Shown piece by piece: positions 4,671 through 46,769 of a stretch of 46,770 nucleotides of DNA (its first letter is position 1; each line of letters starts with the position of its first letter). Made by a program: the position numbers and the translations under genes. Source of the stretch: an uncultured Eubacteriales bacterium (GTDB taxonomy: Bacteria > Bacillota > Clostridia > Oscillospirales > Oscillospiraceae). The notes beneath the pieces are model-generated. The model was not told the DNA's origin, ran no database searches, and saw only the letters and a list, made by a program, of their open reading frames with translations. The stretch lies in contig OMVL01000028.1 in assembly GCA_900314485.1 (NCBI GenBank), positions 1 to 46,770 of the forward strand, given 5' to 3'.

Positions 4671-8384
<3,714 letters not shown>

Positions 8385-34127: not shown

Positions 34128-35756
34128 ATGACAGGAGCACAGGCGCTGATCGAAAGTTTAAAGCGGGCAGGTGTAGAACATATCTTCGGCTATGCCGGAG
34201 CCACCATCTGCCCCACGGTGGACGTACTGGCCCAGACGCCAGAGATCGGCTACACCCTGGTGCGGACGGAGCAAAACGCCGGGCACATGGCCTCCGGCTA
34301 TTACCGGGTCACCGGCAAGGTGGGGGTCTGCATGGTCACCTCCGGCCCGGGAGCCACCAACCTGCTCACCGGCATTGCCACTGCCTATCTGGACTCCATT
34401 CCCATGGTGGCTATTACCGGCCAGGTCCCCAGCCATCTGCTGGGCCGGGACATTTTCCAGGAGATCGACGTCACCGGCGCTGTGGCCCCCTTTTCCAAGC
34501 ACAGCTATCTGGTCAAGGACGCCAACGACATCCCCCGCATTGTGGCGGAGGCCTTTCACATTGCCTCCACCGGCCGGCCCGGCCCGGTGCTCATCGACCT
34601 GCCCATTGACGTGCAGAATCAAAAGCTGAAAAGCTATGCCTATCCGGAAGAAGTCTCCATCCGCAGCTATAAGCCCAGCGTCCGAGGCAACGACCTGCAG
34701 ATCAAGCGGGTAGTTTCAGCCATTGAAAGCGCCAAGCATCCCGTCATCTATGCCGGCGGCGGCATCTTTCTGGCAAACGCCCAGCAGGAGCTGCTGGAGC
34801 TGGCGGAGCGGACGAATATCCCTGTAGTCACCACCATGATGGGCCTGTCCCTGCTCCCCACCCATCACCCTCTGAACCTCGGCATGATCGGAGCCTTCGG
34901 CAACGTGGCGGCCAACAAGGCCTTGGCCAAGTCCGACCTGCTCGTGATGATCGGCAGCCGAGTGGCCGACCGGGCCATCCTCTCCCCGGAGGAGGTCCAG
35001 CGGCGGATGACCATCATTCATATCGACGTAGACCCCGCAGAGATCGGCAAGAATATGCGGGCGGAAATTCCCGTAGTGGGCGATGTCAAGTCCATTCTCC
35101 ACCAGATCCTGGAGCGCATCCAGCCCCGGAGCGGCGACGAGTGGCTGGAGCACTTCCAGGCCCGTCGGAAGGAGGAGCTGTCCCGTCCCTTCCCGGTGAA
35201 GGAGGGATACGTCTTCCCCGGCTCCCTCATGCGCAAGCTGGGTGCGAAGCTCCAATACAATGCCGCCGTCTGCGTGGACGTGGGACAGAATCAGATCTGG
35301 GCCTGCAAGCATCTGACGATGGACGGCCCCCGCTTCCTCACCAGCGGCGGTCTGGGCACCATGGGCTATTCCCTCCCTGCCGCCGTGGGCGTCAAAGTGG
35401 CCCAGCCCGGGCGGCAGACCGTGGTGATCTGCGGCGATGGCAGCTTCCAGATGTCCTTTAACGAGCTGGCCGCCATTGCCCACGCTCAGCTGGACATCAA
35501 AATCGTCCTCATTCAGAATAGCGTGCTGGGCCTGGTGCGCCAGATTCAGGACACGCCTACTTACCCCGCCGGGCCCTTCGGCGTGGCGCTGGACGGCTCG
35601 CCTGATTTTACCGCCATTGCCGCCGCCTACGGCATTCCCAGCCGGGTGATCGGCGACGAGAGCGAGATAGACGGCGCTCTGGAGGAGCTGCTGCATCAGC
35701 CGGGCGCCCGCCTGCTGATTTGCAGGACGGATCCCAAGGCGACCACCAATGATTAA
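34128..35756 (+). CDS. ilvB: Acetohydroxyacid synthase large subunit, copy 1
   Basis: AHAS condenses two pyruvates to acetolactate (valine and leucine path) or pyruvate with 2-ketobutyrate (isoleucine path), using ThDP. The 542-residue protein has the catalytic Glu48 (TEQNAGH) and the ThDP motif GDG (436-438) ending in Asn464-Ser465. It differs from copy 2 in telling ways. The usual GYPGG reads GYAGA, NN in the ThDP motif is NS, and VRQWQ reads VRQIQ with Ile473. That Trp sets preference for 2-ketobutyrate in E. coli AHAS II. It is about 25 residues shorter than copy 2. AAGGAGG lies upstream of the ATG. It is the first gene after the valine T-box, and ilvN1 follows after 11 bp. Confidence 0.93.
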   Translation: MTGAQALIESLKRAGVEHIFGYAGATICPTVDVLAQTPEIGYTLVRTEQNAGHMASGYYRVTGKVGVCMVTSGPGATNLLTGIATAYLDSIPMVAITGQVPSHLLGRDIFQEIDVTGAVAPFSKHSYLVKDANDIPRIVAEAFHIASTGRPGPVLIDLPIDVQNQKLKSYAYPEEVSIRSYKPSVRGNDLQIKRVVSAIESAKHPVIYAGGGIFLANAQQELLELAERTNIPVVTTMMGLSLLPTHHPLNLGMIGAFGNVAANKALAKSDLLVMIGSRVADRAILSPEEVQRRMTIIHIDVDPAEIGKNMRAEIPVVGDVKSILHQILERIQPRSGDEWLEHFQARRKEELSRPFPVKEGYVFPGSLMRKLGAKLQYNAAVCVDVGQNQIWACKHLTMDGPRFLTSGGLGTMGYSLPAAVGVKVAQPGRQTVVICGDGSFQMSFNELAAIAHAQLDIKIVLIQNSVLGLVRQIQDTPTYPAGPFGVALDGSPDFTAIAAAYGIPSRVIGDESEIDGALEELLHQPGARLLICRTDPKATTND

Positions 35757-35767
35757 AGGAGGCCCAC

Positions 35768-36253
35768 ATGAAACAGACGATCTCCGTTCTGGTGGAAAAT
35801 CAGGCCGGCGTCCTGAGCCGCATCACCGGCCTCTTCTCCCGCAGAGCCTTTAACATTGAGTCTCTGGCTGTCGGCGTCACCGACGACCCCACCATCTCCC
35901 GCATCACCATCATTGTGGACAGCGGCAACAGCGTGGTGGAGCAGGTGGAAAAGCAGCTGAACAAGCTGATCGAGGTCATCAAAGTCCGGACGCTGGAGGA
36001 GAATCAGTTCATCGGCCGGGAACTGGTGCTGGTCAAGGTCAACGCCACCCCCAAGACACGGCCGGATATTATGACCATCTGTGAGCTGATGGGGGCGAAA
36101 GTATCAGACATCTCCCCCACCTCCCTGACGCTGGAGCTGTCCGACACCCCCGACCGCATTGACACCTTCGAGGCTATGCTCCGCCCCTTCTCCATTCTGG
36201 AGCTGGCAAGGACCGGGGTCATCGCCCTGCAGAAGGGGAACGGGAAGATTTGA
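35768..36253 (+). CDS. ilvN: Acetohydroxyacid synthase small subunit, copy 1
   Basis: The regulatory subunit confers valine feedback inhibition and activates the large subunit. The protein has 161 residues: an N-terminal ACT domain (about 1-75) with VENQAGVLSRITGLFSRRAFNIESL, and a C-terminal ALS_ss-C domain (about 80-155). The length is typical for IlvN/IlvH. AAAGGAGG lies just upstream of the ATG. It probably pairs with the preceding large subunit, but exchange with copy 2 cannot be excluded. Confidence 0.95.
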   Translation: MKQTISVLVENQAGVLSRITGLFSRRAFNIESLAVGVTDDPTISRITIIVDSGNSVVEQVEKQLNKLIEVIKVRTLEENQFIGRELVLVKVNATPKTRPDIMTICELMGAKVSDISPTSLTLELSDTPDRIDTFEAMLRPFSILELARTGVIALQKGNGKI

Positions 36254-36303
36254 GGGTAATCGCCCCTACGCCACATCCCGAACATTTAGCGAGGAGTGAA
36301 TCA

Positions 36304-38007
36304 ATGAAAATCCGAGCCACCCAAGCCATCATGGAGTGCCTGCTGGAGCAGGAGGTGGATACCGTCTTCGGCTATCCCGGCGGCACCATCCTCAACGTCT
36401 ATGATGAGCTGTACAATTACAAAGATAAGATCAAGCACATCCTGACCGCCCACGAGCAGGGTGCCTCCCACGCCGCCGACGGCTATGCCCGGTCTACCGG
36501 CAAGGTGGGCGTCTGCTTTGCCACCTCCGGCCCCGGGGCGACGAATCTTACCACCGGCATCGCCACCGCCTATATGGACTCCTCCCCCGTGGTCTTCATC
36601 ACCTGCAACGTGACGGAGCCGCTTCTCGGCAAGGACTCCTTTCAGGAGGTGGACATCACCGGCATTGCCATGCCGATTACGAAAGCCACCTATCTGGTCC
36701 GGGACGCCCAGTCCATTCCGGGCATTATGCGTCAGGCATTTGCCGTGGCAGCGACGGGACGTCCCGGCCCGGTGCTCATCGACTTTCTGAAGAATGTCAC
36801 CAACCCCACTGAGATGATCGACTATGAGTTCATCCCCTGGTACGAGAACCGGACCTGGGGCAGCGTCCGGGAGCTGAGCGAGAGCCACGGGTTGAAAGCC
36901 CCGGAGCCGGACCATGAGGACATTGACATTCTGGCGGAGATGATCGCCCAGAGTCAGCGCCCCCTGCTCATCTGCGGCGGCGGCGTGGTCCGGGGCAGGG
37001 CGGACAAGGAGTTTCGGGCATTTGCCGAAAAGCTGGACGCCCCGGTGGCCATTACCCTTATGGGCGGCGGCGGTTTTCCCGGAGCGCACCCTCTCTCCAC
37101 CGGCATGGTGGGTATGCACGGCAGCCGGGCGTCCAACCTGGCCTGCAACGAGTGCGATCTGCTCATCGCCGTGGGCTGCCGGTTCTCCGACCGGGTGGCG
37201 TTGAACCCCAAGACCTTTGCCAAGCAGGCCAAAATCGTCCACATCGACATTGACCGGGCGGAGATCGACAAGAACGTGCTCACCGACCACCACATTGTGG
37301 GTTCTGCCCGCCGGGTGCTGGAGCTCTTGAATGAGCGGATCGGCCAGTATGACCACACTGACTGGAAGGAGCATATCATCCCCCTCCGTCAGCCTCAGGT
37401 AGCCGAGGCGAGCGAAACGCTGACGCCCAAGCAGGTGCTGGAGACGATTCGCAGACTGGCTCCCCAGGACACCATCGTTGCCACCGACGTGGGCCAGCAT
37501 CAGATGTGGTCGATTCAATATTTCCACTTCGACTATCCCGGACAGCTGCTGACCTCCGGCGGCTTTGGCACCATGGGCTTCGGTCTGGGCGCCGCCATTG
37601 GGGCCAAGTGCGGCAATCCGGATAAGGTAGTCGTCCACACCACCGGCGACGGCTGCTTCCGCATGAACTGCCATGAGCTGGCGACTGTGGAGCACTACGG
37701 TCTTCCCATTATCACCGTCGTCTTTAACAACGGCACCCTGGGCATGGTCCGTCAGTGGCAGAACCTGATCTACAAGAAGCGGTTTTCCGAGACCACGCTG
37801 GACCGGGGCCCGGACTTTGTCAAATTGGCGGAGGCCTACGGGCTCCGGGGCAAGCGGGTGACCAATCTCCAAGAGATGGAAGAGGCCATGGAAGAGGCGC
37901 TCTGCGCCGGCTGCGGCTACGTCATCGACTGCGTGCTGGATATGGACGAGATGGTCCGGCCCATGGTGCCCGGCGGCGGCAACATCACCGATTTTCTGCT
38001 AAAGTAA
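36304..38007 (+). CDS. ilvB: Acetohydroxyacid synthase large subunit, copy 2
   Basis: This second AHAS catalytic subunit, 567 residues, is the more canonical one. The catalytic Glu51 (AHEQGASHAADGYAR) and the motif GYPGG are intact. The ThDP motif runs GDGCFRMNCHELATVEHYG to FNNG, and MVRQWQ has Trp485. The ATG chosen has GAGGAG 7 nt upstream; an earlier in-frame ATG would overlap the ilvN1 stop. It follows ilvN1 by 50 bp with no separate promoter seen, so both synthases share the T-box control. Confidence 0.96.
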   Translation: MKIRATQAIMECLLEQEVDTVFGYPGGTILNVYDELYNYKDKIKHILTAHEQGASHAADGYARSTGKVGVCFATSGPGATNLTTGIATAYMDSSPVVFITCNVTEPLLGKDSFQEVDITGIAMPITKATYLVRDAQSIPGIMRQAFAVAATGRPGPVLIDFLKNVTNPTEMIDYEFIPWYENRTWGSVRELSESHGLKAPEPDHEDIDILAEMIAQSQRPLLICGGGVVRGRADKEFRAFAEKLDAPVAITLMGGGGFPGAHPLSTGMVGMHGSRASNLACNECDLLIAVGCRFSDRVALNPKTFAKQAKIVHIDIDRAEIDKNVLTDHHIVGSARRVLELLNERIGQYDHTDWKEHIIPLRQPQVAEASETLTPKQVLETIRRLAPQDTIVATDVGQHQMWSIQYFHFDYPGQLLTSGGFGTMGFGLGAAIGAKCGNPDKVVVHTTGDGCFRMNCHELATVEHYGLPIITVVFNNGTLGMVRQWQNLIYKKRFSETTLDRGPDFVKLAEAYGLRGKRVTNLQEMEEAMEEALCAGCGYVIDCVLDMDEMVRPMVPGGGNITDFLLK

Positions 38008-38020
38008 GGGGGTAGAGAAG

Positions 38021-39596
<1,576 letters not shown>

Positions 39597-39737: not shown

Positions 39738-40271
39738 ATGAAAAAACTGACCGCACTGCTTCTGGCCCTTCTGATGATGCTCTCCCTCAGCGCATGTAAT
39801 CTGTCCGACCTGCTGGGAAGCAAGGACCGGGATGACGACACTCCTTCCCACAACACCAGCACCAACGCCACCGGCGACGTGGGTGAGACCCAGCACACCT
39901 ATTGGTTTGACTTCACCGTCAACGACGCCTATCTGACCCACCGTGTGGACGGCGAGAGAGCCGACGACGGCTATCAGTTCCTGGTGGTGGATATGACCGT
40001 CAAGAACACCTTCAGCTCCGAGATCACCATGTACCGCTATGACTTCCAGACCCAGTGGGGCGACGGCGACGAGGACTACGCCTGGCCCACCTCTATGGAT
40101 GCTGACGGCTACTTCCCCGACTCCTACGATCTGCGCGCCGGCAAGAAGCGCACCGACCAGCTGGTCTTTGAGGTCCCCGAGGACTGCGAGGACTTCGCTC
40201 TGGCCTATCAGGAGGAGTTTGAAAACGGCGACACCGGCGATGTGTTCTTCGTCTACTTCTCCGTGGAGTAA
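39738..40271 (+). CDS. Small secreted lipoprotein with DUF4352-like domain
   Basis: This 177-residue protein has a lipoprotein signal peptide (MKKLTALLLALLMMLSLSAC) with the lipobox LSAC, the Cys at residue 20. An Asp/Ser/Thr/Asn-rich linker follows, then a compact beta domain (about 55-177). WFDFTVNDAYLTH and YQFLVVDMTVKNTFS resemble the DUF4352-type immunoglobulin-like fold of Firmicutes lipoproteins. It is anchored outside the cytoplasmic membrane; its ligand is unknown. AGGAGG precedes the ATG by 7 nt. Its place between ilvC and ilvD is odd: it has no evident role in amino acid synthesis but may share a transcript with ilvD. Confidence 0.88.
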   Translation: MKKLTALLLALLMMLSLSACNLSDLLGSKDRDDDTPSHNTSTNATGDVGETQHTYWFDFTVNDAYLTHRVDGERADDGYQFLVVDMTVKNTFSSEITMYRYDFQTQWGDGDEDYAWPTSMDADGYFPDSYDLRAGKKRTDQLVFEVPEDCEDFALAYQEEFENGDTGDVFFVYFSVE

Positions 40272-40320: not shown

Positions 40321-41946
40321 ATGCGTTCTGATAACGTGACCCAGGGCGTGGAGCGGGCCCCCAACCGCTCCCTGTTTGCCGCTCTGGGCTATACCAAGGA
40401 GGAGACGGACCGCCCGCTGGTGGGTATTGTCTGTTCCCATAACGAGATCGTCCCCGGACATATGAATCTGGACAAGATCGCCGAGGCGGTCAAGGCCGGC
40501 GTTCGTATGGCCGGCGGCACGCCCATTGAGTTTCCCGCCATCGCCGTCTGCGACGGTATTGCCATGGGCCATATCGGCATGCGGTATTCTCTGGTCACCC
40601 GTGACCTGATTGCCGACTCCACCGAGTGCATGGCCATTGCCCACCAGTTTGACGCGCTGGTCATGATCCCCAACTGCGACAAGAATGTCCCCGGCCTCCT
40701 GATGGCCGCCGCCCGTATCAACGTCCCTACCATTTTTGTCTCCGGCGGCCCCATGCTGGCCGGTCACCTGGACGACGGACGGCGCACCTGCCTGAGCGAT
40801 ATGTTCGAGGCAGTAGGCGCTTACCATGCCGGGGCGCTGGACGAAAAGGGCGTGGAGGAGTATGTCATGAACTGCTGCCCCTCCTGCGGCTCCTGGGAAG
40901 CCATCGGCATGGGTCTCCGGGGCAACGGCACCATTCCCGCCCCCTACTCCGCCCGCATCCGGCTGGCCAAGCAGGCAGGTATGCAGGTGATGGAGCTGCT
41001 GAAAAAGGACATTCGGCCCCGTGACATTATGACCGAGGCCGCCTTCCACAATGCAGAGATCGTGGATATGGCCCTGGGCTGCTCCACCAACACCATGCTC
41101 CATCTCCCGGCCATCGCCCACGAGTGCGGCATTGAGATCGACCTGAACCACGTCAACGACTTCAACGCCCGCACTCCCAACCTCTGCCACCTGGCTCCCG
41201 CAGGCGCCACCTTTATGGAGGACCTGGAGCGGGCCGGCGGCGTCTATGCCGTCATGAAGGAGCTGGCGGATGCCGGACTGATCCGCACCGACCTCATTAC
41301 CTGCACCGGTAAGACGGTGGGCGAGAATATTGCAGATGCGGTCAACCGCAACCCGGAGGTCATCCGCCCCATCGACAATCCCTATCTGGCGACCGGCGGT
41401 ATTGCCGTTCTCTTTGGCAACCTGGCGGAGCACGGCTGTGTCGTCAAGCAGTCCGCCGTGGCTCCCGAGATGATGCAGCACTCCGGCCCCGCCCGGGTGT
41501 TCAATTCCGAGGAGGAGGCTATCAAGGTCATCTATGCCGGAGGCATTCAGCCCGGTGATGTGGTGGTCATCCGCTACGAGGGCCCCAAGGGCGGCCCCGG
41601 CATGCGGGAGATGCTGAATCCCACCTCCGCCATTTGCGGTATGGGTCTGGGCGCATCTGTGGCCCTTATCACCGACGGACGCTTCTCCGGCGCCACCCGG
41701 GGCGCTGCCATCGGCCACGTCTCCCCGGAGGCCGCCGCCGGCGGCACCATCGGTCTGGTGGAGGAGGGAGACATCATCTCCATCGACATTCCCAACCACA
41801 AGATCACCCTGGAGGTTCCGGACAACATTCTGGCCCAGCGCAAGGCCACACTGGTCATGCCCGAGCCGAAAGTCAAAAGCGGATACTTGGCACGCTATGC
41901 CAAACTGGTGACCTCCGCCGACAAGGGCGCAGTACTGGAAGGGTAA
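40321..41946 (+). CDS. ilvD: Dihydroxy-acid dehydratase with internal 13-codon deletion
   Basis: IlvD dehydrates 2,3-dihydroxy acids to 2-keto acids in valine, leucine and isoleucine synthesis, using an Fe-S cluster and Mg. The reading frame is open for 541 residues; clostridial IlvD is about 554. Asp78 (VCDGIAMG) and Cys119 (PNCDK) are intact, as are the C-terminal [13 protein letters not shown] and [10 protein letters not shown]. But CPSCGS (186-191) runs directly into [13 protein letters not shown]. Family members have CPTCGSC-SGMFTANSMNCL between these. The missing piece holds an Fe-S ligand Cys and the TANSM loop, so this protein should be inactive unless the assembly is wrong. Ribosome binding site AAGGAGG. 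Identity is certain; activity is doubtful. Confidence 0.93.
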
Positions 41947-45130: not shown

Positions 45131-45400
45131 ATGAGAGCCATCGTTACCGTGGTCGGTCAGGACAGAGTGGGCATCATCGCCGATGTCTGCTCCCTTCTGG
45201 CCAACAACAAAGTGAATGTGCTGGACATCAGCCAGACCGTTTTGCAGGAATACTTCACCATGATCATGCTGGTGGACACTGCCGCCGCTGAAATGCCCTT
45301 TGCCCAGCTGGTCCAGTACCTGCGTGAAGAGGGGGAGAAGATCGGTCTCTCCATCCACGTTCAGCGGGAAGACATCTTCAACGCCATGCACCGGATCTGA
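45131..45400 (+). CDS. ACT-domain protein, UPF0237 family
   Basis: This 89-residue protein is a single ACT domain of the UPF0237 (GcvR-like) family. [31 protein letters not shown] is the ligand-binding strand-helix-strand, and MIMLVD and [15 protein letters not shown] close the fold. ACT domains usually bind amino acids; the ligand here is unknown. GAGGAAG lies 7 nt before the ATG. It is 10 bp upstream of the UPF0210 gene, a conserved pairing, which suggests a regulatory subunit or sensor for that partner. Confidence 0.94.
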
Positions 45401-45410
45401 GGAGAGCATT

Positions 45411-46769
45411 ATGTTAACTGGAAGTGAAATTCAACAGACGCTGCGGATGATCGATCAGCAGCATCTGGACATCCGAACCATTACCATGGGCATCTCCCTC
45501 CTCTCCTGCGCCGACCCGGACCCAGAGGTCTGCTGCCGCAAGATCTATGACAAGATCTGCCGCAAGGCAGAGCGGCTGGTCCCCACCGGCGAGCAGATCG
45601 AGGCAGAGTTCGGCATCCCCATTGTGAACAAACGCATCTCCGTCACCCCCATTGCCCTGGTGGCGGCGGGCTGCGAGACGGAGGACTACGTCCCCTTTGC
45701 CCAGGCTCTGGATCGGGCGGCAAAGACCTGCGGCGTCAACTTCATCGGCGGCTACTCCGCACTGGTGCAGAAGGGTCTGACCGAGGCGGACAGAAAGCTG
45801 ATGCGGGCGATTCCCGAAGCGCTGGCTACCACCGATTTTGTCTGCTCCTCCGTCAATGTCGGCTCCACCCGGGCCGGCATCAATATGGACGCTGTCCGGT
45901 ACATGGGCGAGGTAGTGAAGAAAACCGCCCTGCGTACGGCGGATACCGACGGCTTCGGCTGCGCCAAACTGGTCATCTTCTGCAATGCCGTGGAGGATAA
46001 CCCCTTTATGGCCGGCGCCTTCCACGGCGTGGGCGAGGCGGAGAGCGTCATCAACGTAGGCGTCTCCGGCCCCGGCGTGGTCTATCACGCCCTCCAGTCC
46101 GTCAAGGGCCAGCCCTTTGACGTGGTGGCGGAGACAGTGAAAAAGACCGCCTTCCGCATCACCCGCATGGGCCAGCTGGTGGCAAGAGAGGCCAGCACCC
46201 GGCTGGACACTCCCTTTGGCATTGTGGACCTGTCCCTTGCCCCCACTCCCGCAGTGGGTGACTCCGTTGCCCGGATCCTGGAGGAGATGGGTCTGGAGGT
46301 CTGCGGCACCCACGGTACGACAGCGGCGCTGGCGCTCCTGAACGACGCCGTGAAAAAGGGCGGCGTCATGGCGTCCAGCCATGTGGGCGGACTCTCCGGT
46401 GCGTTTATTCCTGTCTCTGAGGACGAGGGCATGATCGCCGCCGCCCGGGCCGGGGCGTTGACGCTGGACAAGCTGGAGGCCATGACCTGCGTCTGCTCGG
46501 TTGGCCTCGACATGATCGCCGTCCCCGGGGACACCACAGCGGCGACCATCTCCGCCATTATTGCGGATGAGGCCGCTATCGGCATGGTGAACAACAAGAC
46601 CACCGCCGTCCGCATCATCCCCGCTCCCGGCAAAACCGTGGGGGACACGGTGGAGATGGGCGGTCTGTTGGGCTCTGCCCCTGTCATGCCGGTGCATCAA
46701 GGCTCTGCGGAGGACTTTATCGCACGGGGAGGGAGAATTCCCGCGCCGCTGCATAGCTTGCGGAATTGA
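45411..46769 (+). CDS. UPF0210 (PFL family, DUF711) protein
   Basis: This 452-residue protein is complete, its TGA ending one base before the window edge. It belongs to UPF0210, widespread in anaerobes and archaea, with no established reaction. Visible landmarks are [14 protein letters not shown] near the N-terminus, [12 protein letters not shown] near 117, [18 protein letters not shown] near 147, [21 protein letters not shown] near 204 and a Gly-rich C-terminal [14 protein letters not shown]. The fold has been compared to glycyl-radical or pyruvate-formate-lyase-like barrels, but no glycyl-radical motif (RVxG[FWY]) is seen here. ATG start with GAGGAGAG upstream, 10 bp after the ACT gene. Confidence 0.93.

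Follow-up and report, generated by a model that had tools for sequence, protein, structure and literature searches.

In D-xylonate dehydratase, a member of the IlvD/Edd family, three cysteines serve the Fe–S cluster, and the third of them is described as fully conserved across the family (PMC5770437). The motif around this third cysteine is given as GTCSG or GACGG (PMC9314677), and the same two reports assign a role in catalysis to the C-terminal TDGRFSG motif. The closest described case of damage to the dihydroxy-acid dehydratase gene, ilvD, is that of Streptococcus thermophilus, in which apparent natural ilvD lesions are reported inside a kept ilv operon, as in the genome considered here; however, a second ilvD is reported in all strains there, whereas none was found here. 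Literature searches on ilvD pseudogenes, deletions or auxotrophs returned nothing close beyond the S. thermophilus case. Nothing on a Lactococcus ilvD was found, judging by title, in a search on ilvD auxotrophy in Lactococcus lactis, and nothing close was seen in the list of results on auxotrophy in Oscillospiraceae or among the matches listed for inactive ilvD and cysteine. Branched-chain auxotrophies are reported as predicted in 40–41% of human gut catalogue genomes (PMC10689445).

The window analyzed here is a 46,770-nt stretch of contig OMVL01000028.1 (assembly GCA_900314485.1) from an uncultured Eubacteriales bacterium of the Oscillospiraceae; the genome assembly has 1,770,745 bases in 76 contigs and is 97.68% complete. 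The features of the locus are collected in Table 1. The presence of an ilv cluster around ilvD, stated in an earlier sequence-only reading of the window, was borne out by comparing the ilvB–ilvN pairs and ilvC with those of relatives. Two successive ilvB–ilvN pairs of different type lie in one ilv cluster (34128–38587), and the first ilvB has one 1-residue gap relative to that of the related genome G012. A fast-evolving lipoprotein-like DUF4352 gene is located between ilvC and ilvD (39741–40268); a 55% identical homologue occupies the same place in the genome of the nearest relative, G018, and the stretches of G012 and a further relative, G005, gave no match at E ≤ 1e-20. At 45131–46766, an ACT-domain protein is followed by a DUF711 protein.

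Table 1. Positions of ilvD, its putative functional motifs and the neighboring ilv genes in the window.
Feature	Position	Strand	Basis
First ilvB–ilvN pair, 542 + 161 aa, 83–84% identity to G012	34128..36253	+	Names from sequence
Second ilvB–ilvN pair, 567 + 188 aa, indel-free vs. G018 and G012	36304..38587	+	Names from sequence
ilvC, ketol-acid reductoisomerase, 341 aa, indel-free vs. G018 and G012	38571..39596	+	Name from sequence
ilvD, dihydroxy-acid dehydratase, 541 aa	40321..41946	+	ORF; TIGR00110, NF002068, PF00920 and PF24877 matches
Cys77-Asp78-Gly79, kept; putative first cluster ligand	40549..40557	+	Invariant in 23-row alignment; role by motif transfer, as described in PMC5770437
Cys119-Asp120-Lys121, kept; putative second cluster ligand and Mg site	40675..40683	+	Invariant in 23-row alignment; role by motif, as described in PMC5770437
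CPSCG (Cys186, Cys189), kept, directly 5' of the gap	40876..40890	+	23-row alignment, 109-locus comparison
Deletion junction Ser191-Trp192-Glu193; 39 nt fewer at 40895/40896 than in G018	40891..40899	+	Alignment, codon reading

Judged by its profile matches, the ilvD product plainly belongs to the IlvD family. It scores 712.9 bits against TIGR00110 (curated cut-off 618.15) and 759.4 bits against NF002068 (cut-off 644), passing both, and it matches PF00920 and PF24877, each along the whole profile. With the Cys-Asp-Gly class of IlvD covered by TIGR00110 and NF002068, it shares the full-length match above both cut-offs, the Cys-Asp-Gly and Cys-Asp-Lys motifs, and the ilv neighbors; the TDGRFSG motif with the catalytic serine (T451–G457) is also retained in the 23-row alignment. 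What sets it apart from members of this class is the absence of the third cluster cysteine together with 12 other residues.

The missing segment is confirmed. Codon 191 is TCC (40891–40893) and codon 192 is TGG (40894–40896), so Ser191 abuts Trp192, exactly as the sequence-only reading had it. The in-frame loss of 39 nt that it proposed is equally clear from the alignment with ilvD of G018, which belongs to the same genus and is 96% identical to the window protein at the amino acid level: exactly 39 nt are absent from the window, and no further indel occurs within the gene. The 13-residue gap is also seen in comparisons with G012 and G005 and in the 23-row alignment. The order ilvC, lipoprotein gene homologue, ilvD is also found in G018, but its ilvD has the 39 nt. 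The window protein is 13 residues shorter than that of G018. The suggested usual length of about 554 aa agrees with the matched lengths in relatives (549–554 aa), with the exception of three loci of 540–541 aa, in which the match ends at query residue 527 or 528, at a contig end in two or three of them.

The comparison with IlvD of close relatives, proposed in the sequence-only reading, was extended to 111 loci: 30 kept from a protein search of 98 genomes (match in 61), the best 80 of 591 loci retained from a genome-contig scan, and one from a search of the window genome. Two of them are the window itself. All 109 others carry the segment [C/W]SGMYTANSMNC[L/V], the first position being Cys in 108 of them and Trp in the remaining one, L081; some records entered this set twice, by different routes, and 103 distinct coding sequences remain, 102 of them with Cys (this count took only motif-matching sequences, and none of the 109 loci lacks the motif). 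The order was sampled with 295 genomes, of which 139, including that of the window, have an IlvD match at E ≤ 1e-150. A degenerate DNA pattern spanning 12 of the 13 codons is matched exactly in 124 of the 295, among them 123 of the 138 other IlvD-bearing genomes; the tables of IlvD matches and DNA patterns were compared by eye. The remaining one, G347, carries the pattern close to the end of a contig and shows no IlvD match at E ≤ 1e-150. Sixteen genomes have an IlvD match and no exact pattern, namely the window genome and 15 others; when the sequences of the latter were read, the Cys and all 13 residues were present in every one, with conservative changes. Overall, the segment is kept in 138/138 other genomes of the order sample with a strong IlvD match. 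The same short motif, whose occurrence in many relatives with proven activity would have spoken against the sequence-only reading by its own account, is found in none of the 109 loci or 138 genomes. Since all of these keep the segment, the gap is not chance variation, and among the relatives sampled the presumed lesion is unique to the window.

Within the genus, all 26 other genomes of at least 90% completeness match ilvD, with the segment read directly in 23 of these; in G013 and G027, the ilvD match is split over contigs. Loss of ilvD would therefore be unusual within the genus. Across the order sample, an ilvD match at E ≤ 1e-150 is present in 128 of the 226 good genomes. The Trp-bearing locus L081 (positions 5001–6659, Oscillospiraceae metagenome bin E05__bin171) encodes an IlvD in which Trp replaces the third cluster cysteine (CGSWSGMYTANSMNC); this is a candidate second lesion, or a sequence error, at the same residue as in the window.

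In the relatives, CPSCG is followed by S-C-S-G-M-Y-T-A-N-S-M-N-C. Because their GSCSG resembles the third-cysteine motif of the family, the first deleted residue can be assigned by motif as the third cluster ligand of the IlvD/Edd dehydratases. The G-x-C-[SG]-G cysteine is absent from the window protein, and the earlier proposal that the lost cysteine occupies an Fe–S ligand position was upheld by the alignment and motif comparison with relatives. In the phmmer alignment to 6nte, the gap is split and the retained Cys189 stands opposite the third-cysteine motif. This ambiguity of register leaves formal room for a substitute ligand; ten further residues of the stretch are missing whatever the register. 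According to the alignment, the product keeps Cys-Asp-Gly and Cys-Asp-Lys and lacks the third cysteine, the SGMYTAN loop and the start of the next helix. By homology, such a protein would be unable to hold or place the Fe–S cluster and would not carry out dihydroxy-acid dehydration; the window enzyme is probably dead.

Three-dimensional models were constructed using AlphaFold2. The intact relative L033 gave a mean pLDDT of 81.1, with a helix at 200–208 and low confidence at 78–87 and 188–198, among others. The window protein gave a mean pLDDT of 74.6, the helix at 200–208 was not formed, and confidence was low at 75–102 and 189–209, among others. We regard this comparison as weak evidence: it is based on shallow alignments of 29 and 31 rows, no cofactor was included, AlphaFold2 is not designed for mutations and judges their effects poorly, and the model of the intact L033 is also of low confidence in both cluster regions.

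The sequence-only reading had called this the only ilvD and proposed a genome-wide search for a second one. The claim holds beyond the window for the whole assembly: a single PF00920 match, that of the window, is present in the 76 contigs, and no second IlvD/Edd domain was found. A second ilvD elsewhere was thus rejected, with the reservation that a 97.7%-complete assembly does not wholly exclude a copy in a gap. A search of the assembly for another copy of the missing segment (10 of the 13 codons, up to two mismatches) also found none. Other pathway genes appear to be present. There is one leuB match above the cut-off, one class IV aminotransferase, three HMGL-like matches, and aconitase-family proteins, two of which, with frames of 421 and 484 aa, agree in size with large subunits of isopropylmalate dehydratase and may have that function; leuD and ilvA were outside the families searched. 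As no other IlvD/Edd protein was found, loss of this one would block the synthesis of valine, leucine and isoleucine, and on the sequence this block is soundly predicted. Carrier cells would then rely on uptake. Another contig carries a five-gene ABC operon encoding, in order, a binding protein and LivH-, LivM-, LivG- and LivF-like proteins. The best NCBIfam matches of all five are Liv models, each below its curated cut-off, and the operon may be regarded as a Liv-type importer with a putative substrate. BrnQ-type importers gave no match in any of the six genomes searched. The auxotrophy reading calls for caution because genome-based studies are stated to have tended to overestimate auxotrophy, with more auxotrophies in assembled genomes than in isolates (PMC10665431).

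Lineage-specific codon changes were counted in the window and G018 with G012 as the outgroup. In ilvD, 61 synonymous and 5 non-synonymous changed codons were found in the window, and 55 and 3 in G018. The corresponding numbers were 55/4 and 50/6 for the second copy of ilvB, 17/2 and 9/1 for the second copy of ilvN, and 27/1 and 20/4 for ilvC. As for the marks of a pseudogene, a conserved segment has been lost from the only copy, while relaxed selection on the remaining gene is not seen. The rest of ilvD is not relaxed by these counts, and the lesion therefore appears to be young, or else a consensus error. The event would be recent, this being the best explanation for a remainder that still evolves like the intact gene of the relative; the unrelaxed pattern is predicted alike by a loss of recent date, by an error in the consensus and by a protein that still works.

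The course of the deletion can be outlined from the comparison with relatives. An ancestor with an ordinary ilvD would have lost exactly 39 nt in frame, from base 2 of the third-cysteine codon to the last base of the Thr codon 13 codons on. One clean deletion would suffice, provided that the ancestral Thr codon was ACG (codon pair ACG GAA). Such an ancestor is assumed, because G018 and 53 of the 103 relatives have ACC GAG; ACG GAA occurs in 5 of the 103. If the ancestor instead had ACC GAG, the deletion would have to be accompanied by a base change or a one-base filler. An in-frame outcome is one chance in three. No repeat explaining the deletion was seen at the junction when the sequences of the window and relatives were read by eye. 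Deletion between direct repeats was rejected, as the short repeat ATGAACTG(C/T), present on both sides in relatives, would excise 54 nt rather than 39. A DNA hairpin at the site found no support: the G018 stretch folds worse than most shuffles (z 1.45; 186 of 200 shuffles at least as stable), although this was a partial test, as the folded stretch stops inside the deleted segment.

We consider a recent in-frame deletion that inactivated dihydroxy-acid dehydratase, with the other pathway genes and a Liv-type importer present, to be the leading explanation, with a probability of about 0.57. The deletion is known from one assembled sequence only, and an assembly or consensus artefact, in which the organism has an intact ilvD and 39 nt were dropped from chimeric or low-coverage reads, is its most serious competitor, albeit a rather unlikely one. 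The sequence comes from a single draft assembly in 76 contigs, probably a metagenome bin, as 64 of the best 80 related records are titled as MAGs; an unrelaxed ilvD and the retention of the segment by every other relative sampled also suit an error. On the other hand, the junction, inspected by eye, has no repeat able to fold the assembly graph, and the assembly contains no second copy of the segment. A chimera of two species was rejected, since G018 ranks first in similarity among 30 loci on the left (0.904) as well as on the right (0.880) side (L031 was outside this set). The comparison of gene lengths covered the 12 of the 33 window genes, ilvD included, that were matched in the stretches of G018, G012 or G005, the other 21 being outside it. 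Of the 11 genes besides ilvD, only the DUF4352 lipoprotein gene lacks at least five residues relative to its orthologue (17, in G018); gaps of 12–13 residues between the first ilvB and ilvB of G018 and G005 reflect another ilvB type (37–38% identity) and not orthologues. This speaks against poor quality of the contig as a whole, but leaves the ilvD site itself uncleared.

Possibly, two alleles coexist in the sampled population and the assembler reported the short one. Such a polymorphism suits a young lesion without decay in a genome where the other pathway steps appear present, and PMC10689445 describes predicted branched-chain auxotrophy as common in gut genomes; still, we hold it to be improbable. 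In our judgement, a natural deletion, fixed or polymorphic, is favored over an artefact by about two to one. It is very hard to believe that the shortened enzyme is still an active dihydroxy-acid dehydratase whose cluster site has been rebuilt, with Cys186, Cys189 or another retained residue acting as the third ligand. Both cysteines are retained next to the gap, Cys189 is the residue that phmmer sets against the third-cysteine motif of 6nte, and the substitution pattern is unchanged; against this, the lost SGMYTANSMNC is invariant or nearly so in the aligned relatives, and the next helix is not formed in the window protein model. Were the protein functional, the SGMYTAN loop would be dispensable.

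The interpretation given in the sequence-only reading is thus supported as a prediction. Events of this sort are commonplace. An artefactual origin would make the case a caution that in-frame mistakes in draft assemblies can pass for biology. A practical blind spot is apparent: a protein without a putative cluster ligand passes two curated IlvD models, and therefore a model-based prediction of auxotrophy would score this genome as prototrophic at this step. If the deletion is real, a single, very young event would have abolished branched-chain amino acid synthesis in a genus that otherwise keeps ilvD, and would have been caught before any further decay.
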